Below, piece by piece: positions 3,107 to 48,040 of a DNA stretch of 64,000 nucleotides. Position 1 is the first letter of the stretch. The number at the start of each line of letters is the position of its first letter. The stretch is taken from the NCBI RefSeq assembly GCF_035083965.1, contig NC_089738.1:17369734-17433733 (forward strand). The letters run 5' to 3'. The position numbers were made by a program, and so were the translations under genes. Under the pieces are notes generated by a model. The model ran no database searches and was not told where the DNA came from. It saw nothing but the letters and a program-made list of their open reading frames with translations. The DNA is from Branchiostoma lanceolatum (lineage: Eukaryota > Chordata > Leptocardii > Amphioxiformes > Branchiostomatidae).

Positions 3107-6100
3107 ATGAAACACCTTGACCAGGAGCCAACAAGGTCTGTTTGGCTGGCAAACCTGCCCCGAGTGTCCGGATCTCAAGTTTCACAGCTGAAGACCGAGA
3201 TATGTGATGTTCTCACTGAAGGTAAGGTTTACTTTGATTTATCCTGAATCAATTCAATCTCTTAAATCAAATTAAATACTCGACAGGTACATGTACTACG
3301 TAAGAAGTATGGAGGGCATAAATATTTCGACCCTCTTGCCAGGTTGAACACAAAGGGAAAAGCAAACACTTTTGGCGGGCTAGAAAGAAAATGGACGTCA
3401 AGGATGACACATTGGTTTCAGTGTACATTTCGCAATAATTATAATGGAATGTGTTGTAGAAGGTGTAGAATGTCATGAGTGTTTGGGACACCTCAGGCAT
3501 ACCAGTTAAATGTTGTGGCTTTTTCAATGTGTAGACTTAAACCTAACATTCAAGGTATGTTGTTAGGTCATTTTGCAGCTAATACACACTAAGTGTGAGA
3601 CGACTGACAATATATACACAGGGGTACTGTCAGTGTCACCAAAATCACATTGCTTAGTAACACAGCTGCTCATAAAACTGAAACTTGACCACTTACATAT
3701 GAAGCACCAGTTGGAGGGATAAACCTAACAAGTGTACCCTAGCATTAGGAGCAAACTTGAAGACCAGAGTGACATTGTATTCAACTATTGATAAAATTGT
3801 TTAGCCCATACTATTGAAGGTAACATATCATTTATCTTTTAATCACAGCAACTTCAGGGAGGGTAACAAACATCAGGTATAGCCGTCCAAAGGTATGTTT
3901 GATTTTTTATGTACTAATAGAATAATTGATTGACAAATGTATTTTGCTATGTACTTCCTACCAATCCCTGTAAAGCCCTTATGATAAACAAGTGCATCTC
4001 ATGTCTTCATTTCTAAAAAAATGCTGAGACATTTTAAATGAGGATAACTGGTAATATGGGTGTACCCTTTTCTTCTTATTTGTGCTTTGAAGTGATTTCT
4101 GCCAAATTATAGGACAAAAATAAATACTTCAGTCACAGTTCAGTGTAGAAAAACAACATTTGGAATAGCCAACCTCCTCCATACATTGTATATGCACATT
4201 ATTTCCCCCTGTAGCATTAGATTTCCTCTTCTGATTTAATAGTTACTGTAGTACATTCAGAAAAGATGGGAAGTACTATAAATGGATTTAAGTTCATGTG
4301 GTTTTTATTTTGCGCTAAGGAAAAAATAGAGTGTTCGCAGTGGTTTTTAAGTTTGCGTTGAAATAGTTGTCGCGAAAACTGCGAACATAAAACCACTGTG
4401 AACATTTCTGCATTTACAGGATTCTGCATTTACAAAAAGTGTTAGTTTGGTAAATAATAGATTGTATTGATTGCAGGCATGTGCTGTTGTGACATTTTCC
4501 AAGGGGATGTCAGTGGTGAAGGCCCTGCAAAAAGGCAGACAGGTGGGTCTACAATATTATTGCAAATCAAGGACATGTAATTAAACACTGCACCCATGGC
4601 CAACCATCCGCCGAATGGCCAAAAGTCAATGGAAAGAGGATGTTAAGAATCATAGCAAATTGCACCTTATTCAAAACAGATAACTCTGAATTTACTTTTG
4701 TTACATTCCATACAATTCATGTTAAGCCATAATGATTATAATTCACCATTAAATTGTCAAATTTGCTTTCAGGGTTGGATTTTTGTCCGTGGTACCAGAG
4801 TGAAGTTGTTCAGGACACCAGATCCTGTCCTCACGCAAGCTAAGGAGAATAGGCAACACTTGTACTCAGAACCACACAACACCTGGCTGGAAAGGACTGA
4901 GTCCAGTCTGCGTCTCCATAATGATGACCCTCCAGCAATTGACAGCTACATGTACCTCCCATTCCACAAGCATCCCTACAGAACACAGCACATCTCAGAA
5001 GACATCTGTTCAAAAATAGTCGTGGCAAAGTCACAGAGGTCAAACAGAAAGAGGAAGAAGCTTGTCCATTCTACAAACTTTAAGGTGAAACCAAAATGTT
5101 ACTCATCAGACAAAAAACAGTTCAGAATCTGCAAGAAGACAGCAAAACGAAACAAGAAAGGACCAAAGAAAGCTGCTGCTGCTACAATTCCAAGGAGGTA
5201 AGAAATAGAGTACAATATTTGAACAAGGTCGGAAAAGTTCGTGTCTTGTTTTCAATGGAAGGCTGGACTGTGACACATGTCTCACTTGTAAATTATTAAT
5301 GAACTGTGACGCACTGAAACTGGAGTTTGTATACCTGGCCCAATGAGCCAGTAAATATTTCTACAGGTCTGGAGTAATCTGACTCGTTGTTGTTATGAAC
5401 AACAATGCAGTACAATGAAATGTTGGTATAATTTTGTTAAAAGAAAACGGCTCAATGTTTCGCGGCATCTCATTTTTATGAAAAAATGTTTTTTTTTGCA
5501 AACAAGGTGCATACCTATCACATGTAACGTTATATAAACTAACATAAATTGTCTTGAGTCTCAGTTGTGCAGTACAATGAAATATCAGTCATTCAAGAAT
5601 ACAGATCAGTTTCTTCTTCTGACTAGTATGTCATAATCCTATTCTCACAATGCTGAAGATGCAATGTGACGTTAATTTTGGCGGAATTCTTCATTTTCCA
5701 CAGGTACACCATTTATGTCCAAGGATTGACGACCCTGATTCCAATCCAAGTGAAGAGCAATGACACCATTGCAGTTCTGAAAGCAGCCATAAAACAAAAG
5801 GAGGGAATCAAATTGCCGGCTAGGGCATCTCTGTGGTGCAAGGGATATAAGGTAGTTTGATAAACCTTTGAACATTTGATTTTATTGGAATCGCAACAGG
5901 GCAATACACATGGGACACAGGCAGCTATTGCTGATGTCGTGACCCACACACATAATATAGCCGTTTTTTACACTTGGCTGGAGTGGGGAAAGTCGTGTTA
6001 AGTGCCTTTTTCCCAAGGGCACAGATTGGTGTCGTCAGGGGATTCGAACCAGGGACCTTTGGGTTCTGGGCCGAAAACCCTGCCGTTATGCCACACTGCT

Positions 6101-9100
6101 GATGCCAACTTTTAAACCTTCACAAATGACCAAGTGGAAAGTAATTAAGCATGGCTGCTACATGTAGTTACACCCCCCATTCCACTAGGACGGTGCTCTG
6201 ACCGAATCTTATTGATCTTCTTATGCTTTGAGTGTTCTTTTGTAATTTCTGTCATAATTTTACATTGTGCATGATATTCCAATTATGAAACTATGTGTTA
6301 CACGTAGTCAATGTAGGTCACAGTGAGAGCACAGCACTAGTGGAATGAGGGCCTTATACAAAGAATGTTCACACAACAGTTACTGGAATACTCGTCTGGA
6401 AACATTACCACTCATCATCAGATGATTGTACTTAATATCTAATGTTGCTATTGATACCACTATTGAATACTGCAATTATGACCACCAAGCTAATGTTTTT
6501 GATCTCAAACTCAATCTTTCTTTTTCTTAATCATTCTCATCAAAGTTGGTGGACCTTCTAACCTTGGATGACCAGTTGGTTGGACCTGAAAGCAACGTGG
6601 TGCTGCACATGGGCCTCCAAGGAGGATCTGACAAGGGTAAACTTTCTATCTGTACAAAAAGTATTGAGCTTCTAGATAATATTGAGCTTCTAGACATTTG
6701 CGCTTGTATTTACATGCTTTAAACATTTTCCCACCTGTTGTTGTAGTAATATGTATGTGTAGCATATACAATATCAATGTCCATGTAATTTTTCAGTAGG
6801 CAAATTCCTGCAATTTTCATGTTTGGCTTTTGATTAAATGTATTTTTTTTTAATTCATTCTTTCATATTTCAGATGGATCATCACCAGGTCCTAACAAGG
6901 GTGGTAGAGTTTCCTTAAGACCCAAAACTAAAGAGCTACCAGGAAGATCTAAAGACACTGGTATGCACATTCTTCTAACATCTGAAAATATTTACAGTAT
7001 GGCAATTTAATATCATCGTCAATTAAGTCCACACTAACAATTGGTATCATGATTTCGCAGGTTGACATTTTCTGCATTGGCACTTGTACGCAATGCATGC
7101 ATTTCAAAGTACAAAAAGTCACATCATGATTTATACTAACTAGCCTAGTTAAATCATGCTAACAGCCCTTCCACTGGTTAGGTGCCCATGAAGAGGAGGA
7201 TTCCATAGAGCCTGGACAGTGAGTTCATGTTACACAGAAATATGACTTCCTTTTTTTAAACAGATTTGGTTACAGAATTAGAGCTACTGTACCTGGCCAG
7301 GAACATTGGAGTGGAATGGGAGAGTCTGACCATTGCTCTGGGCATGACCAAGGCTGATGTGTACAAGTTCAAGGCTGACAACCCTCACAACACAGAGCAG
7401 GCTATACTTGCCATGCTGGTTAACTGGAAGAGGATGCAAGGGCCACATGCCACAAAACAACACTTGAAGGAAATGTTGACTAGAGAAGGCATAGATGAAG
7501 AATGTTTCGGTAGGTTGTAGGTTGACTTTTAAGCTGAAGAAATCAATTGGCCCTCCAGACAATTTCATACAGTTATTAATTTCACACACTAAAAAGAATA
7601 AAACAGTAATTAGTATTCTAGGGTGGCACCAACTGAATCTGCAAAACAGGCTTACCAACAACATCTACTTTGCCCTCAGCAGTACACATGAACATGTACA
7701 TAGAAGTGTTCATACTGCTTTAATATTTGTCAACAATCCTTATAACTGTCTATGATTCTAGTAATTCTTAGTAAAGAATAAGAATACACAACAGTTACTT
7801 CTCTTTTCAGACTTTATCATCAGGGATATGGCTGAGTCTGCTGCTACTCCAAGTTCACATGCCAGTGCCAAACAAGTTTCCTTACAAATGCCTGCAACTA
7901 AAGGTATAGCCAACATACAGGTTATGATAGTCTCTGCATGTCTGAGGTATGTTGTTAGCATCAAAAATTTGAAGTTAAGGTTCTGGGTCGGAGTTCAAAT
8001 CTAACCGGGGTTGGGGTCAGGGCGCGGTAATCTGCCGGAAGTGTGTGGTTGTCACCCTGATTTCTGCCCGCTATTGCTTGGTGATCGTTATAGCTAATAG
8101 TATGCATAAATATTTTGAATCTTCAGAAAAGCCAGTGAGTTGTTAGTAGTATTTTTGGGCGCGGTGCAGCTGATTTGGGCGCGGTGCAGCTGATTTGCCG
8201 TCAAAGCCTTTTTTGTATTAATCCGCCGCAACGGTGATGCATGTTTTTTCGCCTGATGACCCAAATAGCAGCGTTTTTTATGCATTTTCACTGAATTTGC
8301 ATCATTGGAGATTGTGAAAAAGTTATCACATGACTTTTTAATTTTTTTATTTTTCAGAGACAGGAAGTATTGCGCTTTTTCAGCATATATGCCGTTACCC
8401 CAGGAAAAGTCATTTTTGTCATGCAGCTTCGATTGAAAAAGTGTAAAAAAAAACTTAAGACAATTTTCGTATCCAAAATTTACATTTTACTATGGTTTCC
8501 ACCCAAAATAAAGGGGCAACAGACAATACCGAAAATTAGGAAAGTACAAGCTAACTGCTTTTCGCCGGAATCATTAGATTTTCCATCCTACTTTTCTTGG
8601 TGGATTGTAGCCCATCGGCCTGAGGGTGACGGCCTACATATTAAATCGTAAAAGAAACTCCGGTCCAAGACCTTAAATTAACTCAGTTATGATTGTTGTA
8701 GTCATCAGGAAATGTCAGAATGTACTGATCAGTTCAAGTATTGTAATTGAATTACTTCTTTGTCCACAGACTCTGCAAAGCAAGTGAGTCAAGCAGTCTA
8801 CCATCAGTGCAACTTTTACACCATCACAGACAGCAGAAATGTCATAGTTGGGACAGACAATAGCATTCAACCGCAACTACCAGAGGCAACAGGTACAATA
8901 CCACCAACTTATGTAACCTTATAATAGTTATCAAGTTGAAGAAGGTAACTACACAATGTAAGTCACCTGGGATGTTGACTTGTACTTTTATGTCTGTGCA
9001 ACAAAGCATTCTATAGCTAGGCTACATGTACATGTAGCAGTAATTCAGCTACAAATAACCTGTTAGATGTCACATATTTCAGTAAAAGATCTCCAAAGGA

Positions 9101-12100
9101 AATTTAAGTTGTGTGTGTTAGTATAATGTCAAGAGGGTAGAGCTGTTTTAAGACTTTGGTCATTGTATAATTCCCAGAGGACCGATGACGACTTGGACCA
9201 ACTGCTATAGTAACTTTAATTTGATTTTCCTTGAATCAATTAAAAAACAAAAACAAATTCATTACACAGAACGCAAATTTATTCACATGCTGAATTTTTG
9301 TGTTTTTCCAGGCTTCTCTCCTCCTGAGGGAGCAGATCTGGAGGAATGGTTGGTCGACACGCTTCATCACATACTTAACCCTAAGAATGAACCAAGCTGT
9401 AAACCAATGACTTTGAAAGATCTGGGGACAAAATTTGATAAGTTAAACATGAAATTGGGAAAGAAATTTAAGGAGTACAAGTTCGGCAGTATGAAACAAT
9501 TTATTGAAAACCACAAAAAACAGTTTGAGCTGAGAGAGAAGAAGGGAATGGGTTTGATGGTAGTAGGTAAATTTTTGAAAAAAAAGAAGAAAAAAAGACA
9601 ACAGGCTGAAATGCTGCGTCAAAAACAGGAGGAAGCTAGCGTAGCTAAAAGGGAAGAAAACCAGAATCTGGAAGTAGAGGCAAAAAGTCCCTCTCCAACC
9701 GAAAGGACTAATTCAGTATATGATTCTGAAGATGAACAAAAGCCCAACATACATGAAGATACAGAACAGACTACTGAATCAGGTGTATGCTTACTAACAG
9801 ATAAAGATGTCAGGGAGACACTGGAAGAGCATCAACCCAGACAAAATGTGGAGGAAAATGTGCAAAGCCACCCAATACCGGTAACAAACCCAGAGAAAAG
9901 TAACCAAACATTTCCTCAAATACCTCTGAATCAGTTAATTTCTAAACAGGTGGAAATTTGGAGTGTTGATGAGGTGTGTTCTTGGCTACAAACACTTAAT
10001 CTTAACAAAGGCAAACTTACACCATATATCAAGACATTCCAAGAAGAAGACATAACTGGCAAAGCTCTCCTAAACCTGTCTGACTCTGCTAGAAAAGACC
10101 TTGGCATGTCCATTGGTGACTGGACAGAGATTAAGTCTGAAATTGAAAAGCTCAAGAGTCTAACACATAATCAGCTTCAACAACCCGACATCAGTTTCCC
10201 TGTTGATCATGTTCCAAAAATTGAAAGTCAAAAAGGTATTGATGGAAGGTTAAAAAAGCACAGGCACATTTCAGCAGAAAGAATTTGGAATGACTTTCTA
10301 GACAGCGTTGACGACTTTCAATCATCAAGAGCATACTGTTTAATAGTTGACTACACAACGGACAAAGAGCCAGTTGAGCAACTACGAGTTGACAAAGAAC
10401 ATATCGAAAAGAAACCATCTGGTAACCTTCATGCTCTTGCAAACATCAATTGGACAAAGGTTTTTGATTTTGATCCAAACAGTAGGGATTCCGGAATTCT
10501 AACACATTGTGAAGAACCCCTTCGAAATAGGCGTGGACTATACATAACCACATGTCAAGACCATCCTAAAGATCTTTCTGACAAAGCTACAGAGTGGTTC
10601 TTTCCAATACCTGATGCAAAAACATCTCTAACAAAATGGACAAATGCTGTGGGAAAGAAGCTAAATGCTCATTGTGAAAAACTTGCAGAGTTTTGTTACA
10701 GGAAGAGACCCCTTACAGTAGTTGTGTTGTGGTATGGTAAGGGCAATCTCCTGTCTCATTTGCACCAGTTGCTAGTGAAAATTGGAGAAAATGTCAGCAA
10801 ATCATTGAGGATTGTGCTTTGCTTGAAAAATTCTGAGGTAAGGAAGAGTGTTACAACATTATGTCATGACTTCGAGATTGAAGACATATTTGAGATTCCA
10901 CTAGAGTATTTGTGCCTGTGTCTTTCACAACTTGGTAGTTCTAAAACATCCAAATACATACTCCCTCTCTTATCTGACAGAAAAATAATGGAAGTTGAGA
11001 TAGAACCAAAGGATGCAGCATGGTTGGCAGAAGAGCTTGAAGTTTTGTATGTTGGACAAAATCATAAACCTGATGATCTGGATGGAAATGAACTTGGAAA
11101 TGAATTCTACCGTGGTGGGCAAATTTCTTGGTATGAGTTACAGCTTGGAAACATTGATGTCCAAAGGGACCTTGCGCATAAAATAGAGACACGCCTACAT
11201 GAACACATTGGCAACCACAAGTCAGCAAAGCTGACTCTCTATCATGCACCAGGTGGAGGGGGATCAACACTGGCCCGGAGAATAATTTGGAACCTTCATC
11301 TTAACAAAATAGATGCATGTGTTTGTGTTTTTGTCATTAATCTTTCCCTTGAAACTTCACAAAAGATTGTCTGGCTACATAAAAAGACACATCTTCCTGT
11401 GTTGGTTGTGGATGACTGCAGACTGTGGAAGGCTGAATCCCTGTATATTGAACAACTGTTTCTGTTTTGTCATAGAGCAACTCAGCTTGTGATTTTGGAT
11501 GTTCAAAGGTTTTCATCTAGGATTGAGACAGACAGTAAGGGAGATTCTTTCTGGCTTAGGGGTGAGGTGAGTGACGATGAGGCCATAAGGCTGAAGAGAG
11601 CTTTTGCTCATAATTGCCCAACAAGGGAAAAACAGCTTCAGAAGTTGGTCAAAGATGTCAAAAGTGGCAGGCCACATCATGTGTGTGAGTTTGGACTAGC
11701 TGCATATGAATATGACTTTAAGGGAGTCCAGTCATATGTGTCAGGTTACTTGAAGTATGACAGCTCAGGGGACATGTTACCATGGCAACAGGTGGTGAGT
11801 TTTCTTGCATTGGCATACTACTATGGGCATGCTCAGATTCCAGGACAGTTTTTCGCTCGAATATTGCATATAGATGACAGAGATGTTGTAGATTATGATG
11901 ACCTACCCTATGAGGCAAAAAAAGTTGTTTGCACAGATGAGTTAAACAACTGGCGGATCACGCTACATGTTATAGCCAAAGAAATTCTTGAACAAGTTCT
12001 TCGCCCACAACAGCACAGACGAGAACTTGGCATCAGACTAAGCAAAGATGCCCGTAATCATTTGGAGAAACTGGCTTTAAGTTTTGTCAAAGAAGCTGGT

Positions 12101-13894
12101 GCTCAAAAAAGTAGTGGCGACAGAGTTTCCCATGACATTGTGCAAATTATCAGAGCAACTTTCTTCCAGAGACACAACAATGAAATTCTATTGGCTGGAC
12201 AGAAGAAACATCTGTCACCAATACTCTTAGACATACCATCAAAGCACCCTTACACAGAGAGATTGAATATCTTGAAGCTTCTGGCTGAAAGCTTTCCCAG
12301 AAACCCCCACTGCTTAGCCCACCTGGGTCGCTTCTATGCCTATGAAAGGTCTGAATTTGAATTGGCAAAAGAAAATGTTGAGAAGGCACTTCAAATATGT
12401 CAGGAAGAATTTTCAAAACATCATCACCATAGCACAAATGATGACTTTCGGGGAAGCCAGGATTTCAATGAAATGGACAGCCCATATGATAATAATCTAC
12501 TACGCATATATAACATGAAAGGGTGTGTCTATCTTGCTGAAATGTCTAAACTTGTTGGTCGCCTTGGTTCAGTTACGACATATGAAAGAAGCATAGACAT
12601 AGAGGCTATGATAACAGAAGCCTTGTCACTGGCTAGGATAGCCTCTGATGCTTTTGTAAAGTGTAGAGAGTACTATCGAAAAGGGTATGAACAGGAAATT
12701 GGATATGTTCCTGACATTCAACTAAGGCTCATACTACTTGAATTTATTCAGAAAAATCACTACGGTGGCTATCGTCAATACATTGGTTCAAAAAATGCAG
12801 ATATCTTCATTGAGGAAGCACTGGGAACAATAGATACCCTTATCTGTGAGTGTCAAGACAAGGTTCCTACACTAACTAATGCATTCTACAATTGTGTAGA
12901 CTGGTTCTATGTCCTCTTCAAAGATGCAGCAAGTGCCATCAATGATTGGCATGACATTTCCACTGTAAGAGGACGCAGGGGAAAAATTGCAGCATATAGA
13001 ATGAAACACTATAAAAAAGATGTGGCTGCAACAAGAAGTGTTCAATATTGGGATGAAGTGAACCAAAAAGCAGATATCGTTGACATCATTGCTCTGCATG
13101 AACAAAATGTTGATGAAGTGTTCGAGCATGGTCTTGACTATAGTATTGAGGCGGACATGAAAGACTGGCTTCTAGCTATAAGGCATGAATTGATTGATGA
13201 ACCGTACTCAGTAGAAGAAGTTTTAAGGCGAGTCAGACAGTGGTATGAGCGTGCAAAGTCATCACATTCCATCTACTACATGTATGTGCTTACAACTATT
13301 CTTGCTCTTGGGATTGGACCATATTCTGGTTCTCGTGAAAGTTTTGCAGAGGTAAATCGATTAAAGCCACAGCTAAAAAATGCTGCTGCAAGGGTCAGTA
13401 GACCAAAGATCTGCAGAGAATGGCTTGGTTCAAGTCAAAAAGGTATCCAGTGTTTAGTTCACTCACATTGCCTTAGTGACTGGGATCACGAAACTCGCTT
13501 TTGGAGGTACAAAGAAAAATATACACTTCTGACCATGAGAACAGGGACCATTCGAAAAGCAGACAATGAAACAATAGGTACCATTGAGATGGACACAGGG
13601 AAAATAAGAGGAATTGATGGTATACTGGTAGTCTTTGTTCCAATTGTGTCTGGATTTTATGGAAGACGTTTTGTGAACACCCGTGTGGAGTTCTTTCTGG
13701 GATTCAGTTTTGCTCATGGATGTGAAGCTTTCAATGTGACAGAGTTGAAAAGATACCAGTGCAGCAACTGTGGTAGTAAAGTTGAAATCTCCATGCTAGG
13801 GAAACAAGTTGTTTACTGTGAGTGTGGGTACCCAGTGACCAGAAGGAATAAAGCTGCTCTGATGTTAGGATCTACAGAGGAAGATGTGGGCTAA
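3107..13894 (+). CDS. SAMD9-like STAND NTPase with RRM-like, Ubl, death, RHIM-like and LOTUS-like N-terminus
   Basis: Eleven exons join in frame: 3107-3221, 3849-3892, 4477-4542, 4773-5197, 5704-5851, 6546-6636, 6874-6960, 7264-7509, 7811-7903, 8770-8892 and 9312-13894, giving about 2006 aa. In order: an RRM-like fold (SVWLANLP and ACAVVTF strands, aa 10-95); a basic region; a ubiquitin-like domain (aa 218-297, ending LQGG); a death domain (aa 326-407); a RHIM-like VIVGTDNSI (about aa 465); a LOTUS-like helix domain (aa 482-560); SAM (about aa 692-758); a SIR2-like region; a P-loop APGGGGSTLAR near aa 1125 without the Walker lysine, as I recall is usual in SAMD9, with a VLVVDD Walker B; TPR-like helices; and a C-terminal OB-like part with a CxxC...CxC zinc motif. 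SAMD9 proteins are antiviral and growth-restricting cytoplasmic sensors in vertebrates (1589 aa in human). The AlbA_2 effector domain that follows SAM there is not visible here. The start is the first ATG of exon 1, and earlier exons cannot be excluded. A short exon-like stretch at 7184-7221 does not keep the frame. Confidence 0.85.
4275..4419 (-). mobile_element. TA-flanked MITE ('CTGTAAATGCAG' family), copy A
   Basis: A degenerate copy inside the third intron of the SAMD9-like gene, reading CTGTAAATGCAGAAATG on the minus strand and containing the GTTCGCGGTGG-type core seen at 18464 and 22874. It is non-coding. Confidence 0.6.
5950..6110 (-). repeat. SINE fragment
   Basis: On the minus strand it has a tRNA-like B-box (GGTTCGAATCC) followed by the shared body AATCTGTGCCCTTGGGAAAAAGGCACTT-type sequence, also seen at 48150 and 34430. 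It is intronic to the SAMD9-like gene. Confidence 0.6.
6171..6353. mobile_element. Harbinger-like MITE with TTA target duplication
   Basis: Inverted ends (CCCCATTCCACTAG and CTAGTGGAATGAGGG) are flanked by TTA at 6168-6170 and 6354-6356. It is 183 bp and non-coding, in an intron. TTA/TAA duplications are typical of PIF/Harbinger elements. Confidence 0.6.
8159..8200. repeat. 21-bp tandem duplication
   Basis: Two adjacent perfect copies of GGGCGCGGTGCAGCTGATTT lie in the ninth intron of the SAMD9-like gene. The surrounding 7990-8700 is not coding in any frame that joins the gene. Confidence 0.8.
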
Positions 13895-13972: not shown

Positions 13973-13978
13973 AATAAA
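13973..13978 (+). terminator. Poly(A) signal of the SAMD9-like gene
   Basis: AATAAA lies 79 bases after the TAA stop. From here to 15718 I see no gene: AT-rich sequence, and only a 93-codon open frame at 14042 without a recognisable domain. Confidence 0.6.
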
Positions 13979-32942: not shown

Positions 32943-37904
<4,962 letters not shown>

Positions 37905-42058: not shown

Positions 42059-42173
42059 GAAGAAGAACAGTCCATTTGAAAATGAGGGTATGGAAGTTTG
42101 GTCAATTTACTTTCGGCAGTCGGTATTTTGCCCGAGGGTTGGTAGTTTGGAGAGGGACGCACACCGTGGCGTG

Positions 42174-43881
42174 TTGCGGGTTCCCTCCCCTGGGATCTCC
42201 CATGGCCAGTAGGTGTTAGGAAGTGGGACGAAGGGGAAGGACTGTCGTCGTGATGTGTTACGGGTTCCCTCCCCTAGGATCTCCCATGGCCAGTAGGTGT
42301 TAGGCAGTGTGACGAATCGGAAGGACTGTCGTCGTGATGTGTTACGGGTCCCCTCCCCTGGGATCTCCCATGGCCAGTAGGTGTTAGGTAGTGTGGAGAG
42401 GGACGCACGTCGTCGAGAGTTATGGATTTCGTCCCCTGGGATCTCCCATGGCCAGTAGGTGTTAGGTAGTGTGACGAAGGGGAAGGACTTTCGTCGTGAT
42501 GTGTTATGGGTTCCCTCCCCTGGTATCTCCCATGGCCAGGAGGTATTAGGTAGTGTGGCGAGGGACGCACGTCGTCGAGAGTTAAAGGTTTCGTCCCCTG
42601 GGATCTCCCATGGCCAGTAGGTGTTCGGAAGTGTGACGAAGGGGAAGGACTGTCGTCCTGATGTGTTACGGGTTGCCTCCCCTGGGATCTCACATGGCCA
42701 GTAGGTGTTAGGTATTGTGGAGAGGGACGCACGTCGTGGTGTGATACTGGTTTCATTCCCCGGGATCTCCCATGGCCAGTAGGTGTTAGGCAGTGTGACG
42801 GGGGGTAAGGACTGTCGTCGTGATGTGTTACGGGTTCCCTCCCCTGGTATCTCCCATGGCCAGTAGGTGTTAGGTATTGTGACGAAGGGGAAGGACTGCC
42901 GTCGTGATGTGTTACGGGTTCCCTCCCCTTGTATCTCCCATGGCCAGTAGGTGTTAGGCAGTGTGACGGGGGGTAAGGACTGCCGTCGTGATGTGTTACG
43001 GGTTCCCTCTCCTGGTATCTCCCATGGCCAGTAGGTGTTAGGTATTGTGACGAAGGGGAAGGACTGCCTTCGTGATGTGTTACGGGTTCCCTCCCCTTGT
43101 ATCTCCCATGGCCAGTAGGTGTTAGGCAGTGTGACGGGGGGTAAGGACTGCCGTCGTGATGTGTTACGGGTTCCCTCTCCTGGTATCTCCCATGGCCAGT
43201 AGGTGTTAGGCAGTGTGGAGAGGGACGCACGCCGTCGAGAGTTATGAGTTTCGTCCCCTGGTATCTCCCATGGCCAGTAGGTGTTAGGAAGTGTGACGAA
43301 GGGGAAGGACTGTCGTCGTGATGTGTTACGGGTTCCCTCCCCTGGGATCTCCCATGGCCAGTAGGTGTTAGGAAGTGTGACGAAGGGGATGGACTGTCGT
43401 CGTGATGTGTTACGGGTTCCCTCCCCTGGGATCTCCCATGGCCAGTAGGTGTTAGGCAGTGTGACGGGGGGTAAGGACTGCCGTCGTGATGTGTTACGGG
43501 TTCCCTCCCCTTGTATCTCCCATGGCCAGTAGGTGTTAGGTATTGTGACGAAGGGGAAGGACTGCCGTCGTGATGTGTTACGGGTTCCCTCCCCTTATAT
43601 CTCCCATGGCCAGTAGGTGTTAGGCAGTGTGACGGGGGGTAAGGACTGCCGTCGTGATGTGTTACGGGTTCCCTCCCCTTGTATCTCCCATGGCCAGTAG
43701 GTGTTAGGTATTGTGACGAAGGGGAGGGACTGCCGTCGTGATGTGTTACGGGTTCCCTCCCCTGGTATCTCCCATGGCCAGTAGGTGTTAGGTAGTGTGG
43801 AGAGGGACGCACGTCGTCGAGGGTTATCGGTTTCGTCCCATGGGATCTCCCATGGCCAGTAGGTGTTAGGGAGGGACCCAT
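42174..43881 (-). repeat. 84-bp coding minisatellite, about 20 units
   Basis: Tandem units of 84 bp, with some 78-bp variants, all carry CCTACTGGCCATGGGAGAT on the minus strand. Two unit classes alternate: one with CGTAACACATCACGACGG, one with ATAACTCTCGACGACG. Because lengths are multiples of three, reading frames persist. One minus frame stays open from 43881 to 42274 (535 codons), and the frame of the LRR protein enters the array and stops at 43595. Confidence 0.95.
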
Positions 43882-46009
43882 GCCTTTGACCTTGGATCAC
43901 TAACGGCAGAAACGTTTGCTCATTCCCATATGTTCCAACATTACGGTACCTGTTTTCCGCAGCTGACCTCACAACACCATGGATATCGTTGCACGGAATC
44001 TCCAATTGCAAAGGTTGGAGGGCAGGAGGAGGACGTTGTGCAACAGCTACATGATCTGGGATCTCTGTGTAGGTGTGTGGGAGTACCGGCAGAGGTCGTT
44101 GTGCAAGAGCTATATGATCTGGGATCTCTGCATAGGTGTGCTGGAGGGCAGAAGGGCCTTTATCAGCAGCTACATGATCTGGGATCTCTGCATAGGTGTG
44201 TTGGAGGGCGGAAGGATCCTGATCAGTAGCTACGTCATCTGGGTCTTCTCTGTAAGAGCACTGAATAGGACAGATGGAACTGTTCTTTCGTAAAGTTGGC
44301 CGGAACTTCTTCGGCAGAAACCCCAAAAGGAGCATCAAGATCAGAAAGGCCGCAATTGGGACAACAACTGGGATGACTGGAAACTTTGGGGCTGGTGTTG
44401 ATTGGTCAAGAGTAGTTTGTTGGGTGCCTAGCAGCAGTGTGGATGACAATGTCATCGTGGTCTGGTCTGTAGGAGTCAGAGATCTGTACGCCTCTGTTGT
44501 TTGAGATGTAGTTTGAAGCTTGAGTGTGGGTGTCTGAAAGCTTGTCCGGTCATTGTCACTTTTGTGTACAGGGCATGCTTTGTGGAGCCTCTTTGGGACT
44601 GAGTGGATATCTAAGAATAATGGGACTGAATTGTGTCTTGAGAGGAGGATACATGTTAGATTTAGGTTATTTGTGTGGTTGCCTGCTTTGGTTCCTTTCT
44701 GGGTTTCGTTTCGATAGTTTACTGACTCTATGGTGCTGACTATCTTTGTGTCCGGTGTGTCGTCAACTAGTATCGCAACATCTGCCTTCAAGTTGGTTGT
44801 GTTTCCTACACCCAGGGAAACCAGCTGTAAGGTTGAGTCACCCTTTAAAGCCACTGTAACGCCCAGGTTGTGTTCCCACACCTGTCTGCACTTCTCTTTG
44901 TACATGTGATAGCTAGGGTCATCTTTTTCTGGGTAGCCATTGGTAGCAATGACAACAAAACGTGTCAGACTGTTGAGGTTTGGTGGAGATGCACCTAGAT
45001 CTAACTCATCACATAAGGTAGATACATCTACGTGTTTTGATTCACTATGAGGTGCAACGTCTTTTGAGTCGAACCCCCACGAAAATGCCTTCATGTTTCT
45101 TCCCGGGTAATGCTTGAGGCAGAAATAGAAATTGGGCACCCGAACATGAATGATTTGCTTGTGTACTGAAACGACCCATTCCAATCTGTGTGGCATTTCA
45201 TCGTACACCGTGGCCAAGTTGTTACTACTGGCATAGAAGGTTTCCAGATGCTCCTGCCCCCTCAATACCCCCCAGTCCAGACAGGACAGAGCACTTTTCT
45301 GCAGGTATATTTCAAATATCATCATGTTCTTAAATGTGCTTGGAGGAATAGTCTTAATGCCATTCCCCCCCAAGTACAAGTAAGACAGCGGGCTTTTGCC
45401 TAGGAACCAGGCAGGGTCTACGACCTGCAACAAGTTGTTTTCCAGGTTCAGCCAGATAAGCCAAGGTATGTTACTGAAGCACCGTGGATCAATCTGTGTT
45501 ATTCTGTTATTGGATAAGGTGATCATGCCGAGCTTCTCTAAGCCGGTGAACCAGCCCTGTTTGACATGTGTCAGCCTGTTGAAATCTAGACACAAAAATG
45601 CCAAATGTGAAAAGCCGGTCAACGTATTTTCTTCCAAATCTGTGATTTCATCCTCAATCAGAACCAACGCGTCGATTGATGACCGCTCGAAGGACGGCAG
45701 TTTCTTTCTTGACAGTACACCGAATGGATTGCCCCTGATAGCTAGTGATATTGGCCTCCCTAGCAAGCAGGGTGTAGTACCATTATGGATGAGAGTATTA
45801 CTGACAGGGATAGCACTCTGTTCCTGGTGCTTGCATAAGATGCACGTACCCGAAGAGTGCGACAGCGCTCCAGGCATAGCGTCATATAAACATTCAGACC
45901 AGCTAGCATTGACACAGAAAGGGAAGCAGAAACTCGCCGAGGCTGTTCCGACTGCCATTAAGGCCAGAGAAAATAGCACGAAAATGTGTGTTTTAGTTCT
46001 AAGAGCCAT
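43595..46009 (-). CDS. LRR transmembrane receptor-like protein with Y-x-E-I-P tail repeats
   Basis: A single coding exon of 804 aa. Residues 1-27 form a signal peptide (M-A-L-R-T-K then a hydrophobic core). Leucine-rich repeats span about aa 100-240 (L-x-x-L-x-L-x-x-N-x-I/L-x-x-I spacing), followed by an unassigned extracellular part, a Thr/Ser-rich stalk, and a transmembrane helix at about aa 546-568 with a K-K stop-transfer. The cytoplasmic tail has about 20-residue repeats containing YAEIPDH (twice) and YTEIPDH plus degenerate copies, then four N-T-Y-W-P-W-E-I units from the minisatellite. The start is chosen for the signal peptide; the frame is open further upstream only through a CTTT repeat that looks like an intron end. 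Ligand and exact family are unknown; an immune or adhesion receptor is an inference. Confidence 0.85.
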   Translation of the reverse strand: MALRTKTHIFVLFSLALMAVGTASASFCFPFCVNASWSECLYDAMPGALSHSSGTCILCKHQEQSAIPVSNTLIHNGTTPCLLGRPISLAIRGNPFGVLSRKKLPSFERSSIDALVLIEDEITDLEENTLTGFSHLAFLCLDFNRLTHVKQGWFTGLEKLGMITLSNNRITQIDPRCFSNIPWLIWLNLENNLLQVVDPAWFLGKSPLSYLYLGGNGIKTIPPSTFKNMMIFEIYLQKSALSCLDWGVLRGQEHLETFYASSNNLATVYDEMPHRLEWVVSVHKQIIHVRVPNFYFCLKHYPGRNMKAFSWGFDSKDVAPHSESKHVDVSTLCDELDLGASPPNLNSLTRFVVIATNGYPEKDDPSYHMYKEKCRQVWEHNLGVTVALKGDSTLQLVSLGVGNTTNLKADVAILVDDTPDTKIVSTIESVNYRNETQKGTKAGNHTNNLNLTCILLSRHNSVPLFLDIHSVPKRLHKACPVHKSDNDRTSFQTPTLKLQTTSQTTEAYRSLTPTDQTTMTLSSTLLLGTQQTTLDQSTPAPKFPVIPVVVPIAAFLILMLLLGFLPKKFRPTLRKNSSICPIQCSYREDPDDVATDQDPSALQHTYAEIPDHVAADKGPSALQHTYAEIPDHIALAQRPLPVLPHTYTEIPDHVAVAQRPPPALQPLQLEIPCNDIHGVVRSAAENRYRNVGTYGNEQTFLPLVIQGQRHGSLPNTYWPWEIPWDETDNPRRRASLSTLPNTYWPWEIPGEGTRNTSRRQSLPFVTIPNTYWPWEIQGEGTRNTSRRQSLPPVTLPNTYWPWEI

Positions 46010-46028
46010 TATGTATGTCTCCTTGAGC

Positions 46029-46114
46029 TGAAAGAAAGAAGGAAAGAAAGAAAGAAAAAGAAAGAAAGAAAGAAAGAAGGAAAGAAGGAAAGAAGGAAAG
46101 AAAGAAAGAAAGAC

Positions 46115-46145
<31 letters not shown>

Positions 46146-46190
46146 AGAAGAAGAAGAAAGACAAAGAAAGAAAAAGAAAGAATTTCAAAG
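46029..46190 (-). repeat. (CTTT)n tract acting as a likely 3' splice site pyrimidine tract
   Basis: On the minus strand it reads CTTTCTTTCTTTCAG and then CTCAAGGAG, 20 bases before the ATG of the LRR gene. It fits an acceptor for a 5' UTR intron; the upstream exon was not identified. Confidence 0.6.
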
Positions 46191-46379
46191 AAAAAAGTTA
46201 CGGCACTTATCTGGTTAGCTTGTCGGCAATGGATAAGCCAATTCTCCGTGGACAGAGGATGTCTTTGTCGTTCTTGCGAGGACGTCGTGGCACCTTTTGA
46301 TGCGACAGTGCTTTTTCTGCTCGTCCTGTAGACGATGTCCAGGCGCTTAAAAGCACTTCGCGCAGGAATATTGATGAGG

Positions 46380-48040
46380 CAAACGGAAGGATGTTTTTGA
46401 TGAAGAGTTGCTGACAAGATTTGTGCCCCCGGGCAACGGAAAGAGCATCTTCCCGATGGTCAGACTGATTTCTAGTCTGTATCTGGGTCGCTGGACTCAT
46501 GATCCGTCAACCTTAGTGCATCTTTAGATAGTGAGCTTACTTTTCATTTGCGGACTTAATAGCAGTATCCTCAAATACATTTATGTGGATAGATGGGTAG
46601 ATAGATAGATAGATAGATAGCGGGCAGCGGAAAAGACTCCGTCCTGTTGTTCGTATCAATCTCTACCAGATCTTTTGGGTTGCTGGACTCATGGGCGGTC
46701 AACCTTAGTACACTTCTAGGTGGTGAGCTTTCTTTTCATGTCAAAAATTATATCGTTATCCCAAAGTATATCTATGTGCATGGATGGATAGATAGATACA
46801 GATATCATAAACCACTGGCTCTACATCAGTCGTCGGTCATGTATTTATGTATTTAGTACATGTATACATATATGTATTTAGTACAGTAATATTGAAGCAT
46901 ACAGAAGGACGCTGTTGATAAAAATCTGCTTACAAGATCTGTGCCTCCGGGGCAACGGAAAAGGCTCCTTCCTGTTGTTCGGAACTAATCTCCACCATTT
47001 TTTTTGGGTCACTGGATTCATTGAAAGTTAACCTTAGTATACTTTAAGATAGCGTGCTTTATCTTTTCATGTATGGCAAGTATCGTTGTCACCAAATCCA
47101 TGTAGGCGGATAGATGAATACAGATATCATAAACCACTGGCTCTACATCATTAGTCGTCGGTCATGTATTTATGTATTTAGTACATGTATACATATATGT
47201 ATTTAGTACAGAATTGTTGAAGCATACAGAAGGATCTGCCAGATTTGTGCCTCCAGGGAAACGGAACACCCTCCTCCCTTAAAGTTAGAACAATTTCCAC
47301 TGGTCTCTGCCCTGCGGTAAAAAGTCAGAATATGACATGGCGACTACTGGTTTGTTGATGAGTGACAGTGGTTTTTGTTTCTAATCTCATTAAAAGTTTA
47401 GTGAGAAATGCTGTGAAAATATAAGCAATGTTCCCCAAAGAAAACAGAAGTTTAGATGTTAAGTGAAGTCGTGGCACCTTTAGATGGGGCAATGCTTCCT
47501 ATGCTGACCATGCATTAAAATATCCAGATGTTTAAATGCACGTATTTCTTGTAGTAATATTGATGAGACACACAGAACAACCTCCTGACAGGATATGTGC
47601 CTCCAGTGCAGCGGAAAACACTGTTTCCTTAAAGTTAGACTAATTTCCACTGGTCTCTGCCCTGCGATAAAAAGTCAAAATATGACATGGCGACTACTGG
47701 TTTGTTGATGAGTTACAGTAGTTTTTTTTTTTTCAAATTTCATTATACCTTTTGTGAGAAATGCTGTGAAAATTTACGCAGTGTTCACTAATGATAACAG
47801 TAGTGCAGAAATTACGTGGAACCTTCATATGTGGCAATGCTTCCTATGCTGGTCATGCATTACAATATCCAGATGTTTAAATGCATGTATTTCTTGTAGT
47901 AATATTGATGAGACACACAAAACAACCTCCTGACAGGATATGTGCCTCCAAGGCAGCGGAAAACACTGCTTCCTAAAAGTTAGACTAATTTGCACTGGTC
48001 CTGCGGCAAAAGGTCAGAAGATAGGATGATCGGGTTTCTG
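46380..48040. repeat. Degenerate tandem duplication upstream of the LRR gene
   Basis: Five diverged copies of a segment marked by TGTGCCTCC(A/G)GGGCAACGGAAA are at about 46420, 46940, 47245, 47595 and 47945. The later ones share CCACTGGTCTCTGCCCTGCG and ATGACATGGCGACTACTGG. No gene is visible here. Confidence 0.8.

Follow-up and report, generated by a model that had tools for sequence, protein, structure and literature searches.

A predicted amphioxus SAMD9-family STAND protein that appears to lack the AlbA_2 nuclease and to carry death and ubiquitin-like domains in front of its core

How would a SAMD9-family protein signal if the nuclease domain of its vertebrate relatives were missing? The question is raised by a predicted gene of the lancelet Branchiostoma lanceolatum, which lies at positions 3107-13894 on the forward strand of a 64,000-nucleotide stretch of contig NC_089738.1 (17,369,734 to 17,433,733; hereafter the window, with all positions counted from its first letter). 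We propose, with a probability of roughly 0.55, that its product is a SAMD9-family STAND protein without the AlbA_2 tRNase effector, whose front end includes a ubiquitin-like domain and a death domain like that of RAIDD, and that it would signal by recruiting adaptors. The features on which this proposal mainly depends are as follows.

3107-13894, forward strand: predicted coding region of 11 exons and 2006 residues, from the ATG at 3107 to a TAA ending at 13894
5705-6629, forward strand: ubiquitin-like domain, residues 218-294, exons 5 and 6 (Pfam ubiquitin and PDB ubiquitin matches)
7266-7508, forward strand: death domain, residues 327-407, in one exon of phase 1-1 (Pfam Death and PDB matches)
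9956-10156, forward strand: SAM domain, residues 695-761 (Pfam SAM_1 and PDB SAM domains)
10286-13738, forward strand: SAMD9-family core (SIR2-like, STAND NTPase, putative TPR, and OB parts), residues 805-1955 (BLASTP to the bacterial protein P0001, profile to human SAMD9)
11240-11275, forward strand: Walker A of SAMD9 type, YHAPGGGGSTLA (from sequence, aligned with human SAMD9 and P0001)
11399-11428, forward strand: Walker B-like motif VLVVDDCRLW (from sequence)

The SAM/STAND core, which a preliminary description of this DNA had placed here, proved to be real. The SAM domain matches Pfam SAM_1 at 3.9e-7 and SAM domains in the PDB, including that of aveugle at 5.9e-5, and residues 325-1475 of exon 11 align with residues 174-1227 of P0001 (BLASTP E 2e-65, 24% identity over 1182 columns). 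Human SAMD9 was found by P0001 alone at 6.9e-9 and by exon 11 alone at 1.6e-5, and a profile of the two cores, from the window and from P0001, reached it at 6.5e-13. The score of this profile comparison is due mainly to the STAND stretch (41.4 bits); the SIR2-like and OB parts follow in the same order at 2.1 and 3.0 bits, neither of them significant alone. The P-loop, with GGST, has a glycine in place of the Walker A lysine and retains the upstream histidine, as in human SAMD9 and P0001; the glycine-for-lysine change and the histidine are both described for the P-loop of the SAMD9 family (PMC5445408). The human SAMD9 chain 37id_A stops one residue past the aligned OB part, and the zinc-ribbon-like tail of the amphioxus protein, listed below, lies beyond both the bacterial and the human core. 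Scans of exon 11 with PADLOC and NCBIfam models gave no match.

AlbA_2 itself was not reported by Pfam in residues 1-480 or in exon 11 at an E limit of 10, a setting at which the HMMER filters still discard most matches above 0.1. As a positive control, the same library detects SLFN_AlbA_2 in residues 14-142 of P0001 at 8.7e-8. Homology of the core with P0001 starts right behind the bacterial AlbA_2 and extends to the OB part, and the distance from the SAM domain to the start of this homology is 44 residues. Because just these 44 residues stand where P0001 has its AlbA_2, we consider the absence, also claimed in the preliminary description, to be genuine. The tRNase-SA domain of human SAMD9 and SAMD9L has an E184/E196/E218/D241-type site (PMC13245274), and this site is not present here since the domain holding it is absent. 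AlbA_2 may have been lost in the lineage of this protein, or that lineage may never have had it. The domains and the missing AlbA_2 can be read from the predicted protein sequence.

Upstream of the SAM domain, exon 8 encodes a death domain that scores 40.8 bits against a Pfam cut-off of 22.6 (2.5e-10 with exon 8, 7.4e-9 within the 480-residue sequence). Its best solved relative in a PDB sequence search is RAIDD/CRADD (3.4e-12), followed by ankyrin-2 (1.7e-6), and it shares 22 of 70 residues with RAIDD, which is a CARD-death adaptor (PMC6169973). The ubiquitin-like domain is spread over two exons: The spliced 81-residue segment passes the Pfam ubiquitin cut-off of 25.4 bits (27.8 bits, 2.1e-6), exon 5 alone gives 20.7 bits, and the score within the 480-residue sequence, 24.6 bits, falls just under the cut-off. 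Its C-terminal Gly-Gly (exon 6, 6546-6636) aligns with Gly75-Gly76 of ubiquitin and is followed by a serine; it could be a site of processing or mimicry. Both the death part and the ubiquitin-like part had been named before, and both hold up, the latter on the spliced segment.

We suggest a possible scheme for signalling by this protein. The SIR2-like/STAND/TPR/OB core would stay closed until a trigger arrives, which may be sensed at the TPR/OB/zinc-ribbon end and perhaps also at the RRM-like end. The triggered core would oligomerise and bring the death and SAM domains together in clusters, on which a complex with death-domain adaptors would form, and caspase or NF-kB signalling would follow; the ubiquitin-like domain may aid the recruitment of partners from the ubiquitin pathway. 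We infer the trigger, the oligomerisation and the adaptor recruitment, as well as the roles of the ubiquitin-like and RRM-like parts. The AlbA region of human SAMD9 and SAMD9L contains a tRNA nuclease; the two proteins are unusual in having a nuclease of their own, the other characterised eukaryotic STAND proteins recruiting adaptors instead (PMC13245274, section 22). Having a death domain at the front and no nuclease, the amphioxus protein would fit this recruiting mode. The suggestion in the preliminary description that it signals through death-fold contacts instead of cutting RNA would accordingly be the simplest reading of the missing nuclease domain and the death fold. As for its origin, human SAMD9 is a single-exon gene (PMC9433874). 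Since the SAM domain and the core are here encoded by one 4.6-kb exon (exon 11), with SAM directly before the core, the arrangement suggests that an ancestral SAM-AlbA-core gene may have lost AlbA and gained upstream exons. A wider idea, which we hold only tentatively, is that of an effector swap within one immune receptor family: The SAMD9-type STAND core, linked to AlbA_2 in bacteria and vertebrates, might here drive a death domain resembling that of RAIDD, and the receptor would bring along its own ubiquitin-like recruiter or, the Gly-Gly being kept, a cleavable ubiquitin-like piece.

That exons 1-11 belong to a single transcript is predicted from the following gene model.

3107-3221, 3849-3892, 4477-4542, 4773-5197, 5704-5851, 6546-6636, 6874-6960, 7264-7509, 7811-7903, 8770-8892 and 9312-13894, forward strand: exons 1 to 11
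13973-13978, forward strand: AATAAA, a possible poly(A) signal (sequence scan)

All ten junctions are GT-AG and frame-compatible, and the joined exons give a single frame without stops. The preliminary description gave both ends of the coding region correctly (3107 and 13894), but its 11 junctions come down to 10. There is an in-frame stop at 2984 upstream of the ATG, and the base at -3 is A. Among all GT and all AG of the region, the donors rank from the 89.7th to the 99.8th percentile and the acceptors from the 88.6th to the 99.5th, and the introns measure 230-866 bp. With a codon model trained on exon 11, exons 1-10 together yield a coding signal of +79 bits. Individual junctions are supported because domains span them, namely the ubiquitin-like domain over exons 5-6 and a weak RRM alignment over exons 2-4. 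Exons 7-10 are each of phase 1-1, agreeing with the entry of exon 11, and exons of this kind can be open to shuffling; exons 9 and 10 have the hexapeptide SAKQVS in common. AATAAA or ATTAAA occurs 9 times within 3107-9311, and the motif at 13973 says little alone. Intron 9 contains a perfect 20-bp tandem duplication, TTTGGGCGCGGTGCAGCTGA (8154-8197).

Several points weigh against our proposal. Compared with 3000 noncoding pieces, exon 2 (44 bp) has a coding signal of -0.5 bits, equalled or bettered by 564 of them; exon 9 reaches 0.2 bits (181 of 3000) and scores higher in another frame; and exon 3, with 112 of 3000, is a borderline case. The gene model as a whole rests on the genomic sequence of one species. 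The Pfam STAND and TPR matches of the core lie under their cut-offs (TPR_10 has E 0.036, although the TPR region is within the P0001 alignment), and an AlphaFold2 (AF2) model of the core, made on a two-row alignment, was poor and was discarded (mean predicted local distance difference test score, pLDDT, 37). RAIDD, the closest solved relative of the death domain, may not be its true closest relative. Four RAIDD positions, G128, R147, F164 and R170, have been discussed in the literature, and variants of R170 abolish PIDD binding in vitro (PMC4977500, PMC6169973). Only G128 is kept here, with R147 changed to lysine, F164 to leucine and R170 to methionine; because this last residue is the one tied to PIDD binding, a contact of the PIDD type is not predicted.

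The remaining parts of the predicted protein are less well defined.

3134-4823, forward strand: RRM-like segment, residues 10-92, exons 1-4 (weak Pfam and PDB matches)
5025-5195, forward strand: basic linker between the RRM-like and ubiquitin-like parts, residues 160-216 (residue composition)
8808-8876, forward strand: RHIM-like stretch CNFYTITDSRNVIVGTDNSIQPQ with the core V-I-V-G (from sequence; canonical Q absent)
9312-9568, forward strand: helical segment, called LOTUS-like in the preliminary description (AF2 single-sequence model)
13739-13891, forward strand: 51-residue tail past the end of the shared core, with a zinc-ribbon-like CxxC-x15-CxC (Pfam Zn_ribbon_RPAB4, E 0.028, below cut-off)

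For the RRM-like segment, the top Pfam family (RRM_PARP14_3, E 0.078) and the sole PDB match (the RRM of Rbm22, E 1, aligned over exons 2-4) are both RRMs. Of ten shuffled copies, 2 match other Pfam families below 0.1 (0.017 and 0.031), and a bacterial RRM profile fits the segment no better than shuffles do (644 of 5000 equal or better), this profile consisting of 5 sequences caught by a pattern from 30 loci, which represent canonical RRMs and are ill suited to testing a degenerate one. The segment has an RNP2-like VWLANL, and in KACAVVTF the aromatic residues of what we take to be the RNP1 consensus are replaced. An RRM identity for this RRM-like part of the preliminary description is suggestive. 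Sensing of RNA, also proposed earlier, would have this weak RRM and the OB fold of the core as its sole basis and is speculation. The basic linker belongs to a stretch of 117 residues (100-216) with 28 lysines and arginines against 10 aspartates and glutamates, in which a Pfam scan of the linker gives no family. As for the LOTUS-like part, the AF2 single-sequence model of 9314-9571 has four helices with a mean pLDDT of 70.5. A LOTUS profile gives 4.1 bits (27 of 5000 shuffles equal or better), covering 15 residues only and in an odd register; the best of 24 pairwise comparisons is equalled by 16 of 1000 shuffles. These two results are faint hints, while four canonical LOTUS sequences summed are equalled by 128 of 1000. 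The segment has no Pfam (PF12872), PDB-sequence or significant PDB fold match, and a LOTUS domain is at most hinted at.

Four other explanations of the locus can be considered. Exon 11 could encode a SAM and SAMD9-core protein by itself, while exons 1-10 make a separate RRM/ubiquitin-like/death adaptor, as two genes or as two main isoforms. The single exon of human SAMD9 (PMC9433874), matched here by the one exon for SAM and core, would agree with such a division, as would candidate start ATGs at 9185, 9287 and 9407 within the open frame of exon 11 and the fact that the weakest donor is that of exon 10 (89.7th percentile). The acceptor at 9312 is nevertheless strong and in phase (98.6th percentile), introns 9 and 10 measure only 866 and 419 bp, and exons 7-10 enter and exit in phase 1, the same as exon 11. 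Moreover, the base at -3 is C at all three ATGs, against A at the ATG at 3107, and C at this position is a poor start context. We thus regard a division of the locus as unlikely and prefer a single product in which the front end is joined to the core.

Within such a product the SIR2-like domain might be the effector, with NAD or a compound related to it as its substrate, and the death domain might only regulate it. Some STAND proteins of bacterial defence do have SIR2 effectors, which counts for this explanation, and the SIR2-like region is retained and aligned with P0001. It seems rather improbable all the same: Pfam has no match to the region at an E limit of 10, we identified no catalytic residues in it, and the SIR2-like domain of SAMD9 has been described as a variant (PMC5445408). 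Slightly harder to credit is a brake or decoy, in which a SAMD9 relative devoid of an effector would tie up death-domain adaptors or hold down the activity of full-length SAMD9 relatives. The altered R147 and R170 positions would suit a poor activator, and Pfam scans find no known enzyme domain beyond the variant SIR2-like and STAND parts; yet a STAND core kept across about 1150 residues, including the P-loop and the Walker B-like motif, argues for regulated activation. Least probable is an RHIM-type cross-beta contact as the carrier of the signal, a notion that goes back to the RHIM-like part and amyloid contact of the preliminary description. The linker that follows the death domain contains DSRNVIVGTDNSI, a match to the loose pattern [VI]x[VILC]GxxN, which is seen once in the protein where 0.12 occurrences are expected per shuffled protein. 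The defining RHIM core is the tetrad (V/I)-Q-(V/I/L/C)-G (PMC9444067), which occurs 0 times in all 2006 residues; the core at residue 463 is V-I-V-G, and Pfam and PDB searches with the stretch gave no match. Because the Q of the tetrad is absent, an amyloid contact is not supported, and amyloid signalling by this protein is speculation. Recruitment of adaptors through the death domain by an AlbA_2-free core accordingly stays our preferred reading.

P0001 came from a search of bacterial genomes with a DNA pattern that describes a P-loop of SAMD9 type; the search gave three places (L001, L002 and L003). It is encoded at L002:2018-5731 in a metagenome-assembled genome of Deltaproteobacteria and has 1238 residues from the chosen ATG in an open frame of 1286. 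L003, in a Blastochloris metagenome-assembled genome, holds a broken relative of it, and L001, judged by its list of open reading frames only, was taken as a chance match. P0001 has the same collinear core as the amphioxus protein, from the SIR2-like part through STAND and a putative TPR part to OB; it differs in its N-terminal SLFN_AlbA_2, in having no SAM, death or ubiquitin-like match and in terminating at the OB part. Its AlbA_2 part is also matched by the PADLOC model PDC-S50 (1.7e-9). SAMD9-like proteins in bacteria are held by actinomycetes especially (Mekhedov et al. 2017, PMC5445408). P0001 was also searched against sampled genomes of two bacterial phyla with an E limit of 1e-15: Of 377 genomes in one and 387 in the other, one each matched, in both cases the starting genome. 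Further homologues of the SAMD9 core were not confirmed in viral contigs or, by a short alignment, in genome contigs, and a phage search found none; one plasmid search gave 6 records with the AlbA part only, and another gave none. Rfam had no match at gathering scores.

Two other loci of the window may be recorded. On the reverse strand at 42107-46459, a leucine-rich repeat (LRR) protein frame (43595-46459, LRR_8 2e-28) continues in the same frame past one stop into about 20 copies of a 28-residue repeat with the motif NTYWPWEI(P/Q)GEGTRNTSRRQS, corresponding to an 84-bp tandem array at 42171-43870; these repeats are possibly the repeat-rich tail of the LRR protein, cut by the stop. On the forward strand at 33472-36123 there are protein kinase exons, with Pkinase at 3.2e-20 (35737-36123) and, more weakly, at 5.5e-4 (33472-33867).

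How far does this protein depart from known ones? Like vertebrate SAMD9 and SAMD9L, it has SAM before a core with SIR2-like, STAND, putative TPR, and OB parts, a P-loop with glycine for lysine, and SAM and core in one exon; unlike them, it appears to have no AlbA_2 (tRNase-SA), ten additional exons upstream encode its RRM-like, ubiquitin-like and death parts, and it ends in a zinc-ribbon-like tail. Mekhedov and colleagues (2017, PMC5445408) reported loss of AlbA in some SAMD9-family proteins, so that AlbA_2 is not required, and death-superfamily domains in others. The invertebrate and fish proteins that they describe share with ours an N-terminal death-superfamily domain on a SAMD9 core and, in some, the loss of AlbA_2, whereas SAM is said there to be limited to vertebrates and the text consulted here names no ubiquitin-like or RRM part. 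Amphioxus is also known for shuffled immune genes, many of them death/NACHT/TIR/SAM hybrids; Zhang et al. (2008, PMC2575513) list death-NACHT, TIR-SAM and other direct connections, and the words SAMD9, ubiquitin and RRM are absent from the main text of that paper. Death-like/TRADD-N proteins are expanded in Branchiostoma as well (Kaur et al. 2021, PMC8195603). Among the matches listed by full-text searches of open-licence papers, none concerned a protein that joins a SAMD9 core to ubiquitin-like or RRM parts. Because AlbA loss and death domains were reported for the family in 2017 and amphioxus immune genes are known to be shuffled, we regard the present protein as a probably new combination of a known kind.

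The predicted protein would add the combination of SAM, death and ubiquitin-like domains to a family whose SAM has been described as limited to vertebrates (PMC5445408). If our reading is true, one could ask whether a single sensing and assembly core drives either outcome, nuclease or recruitment, and which of the two, adaptor recruitment or the nuclease, arose first in animals.

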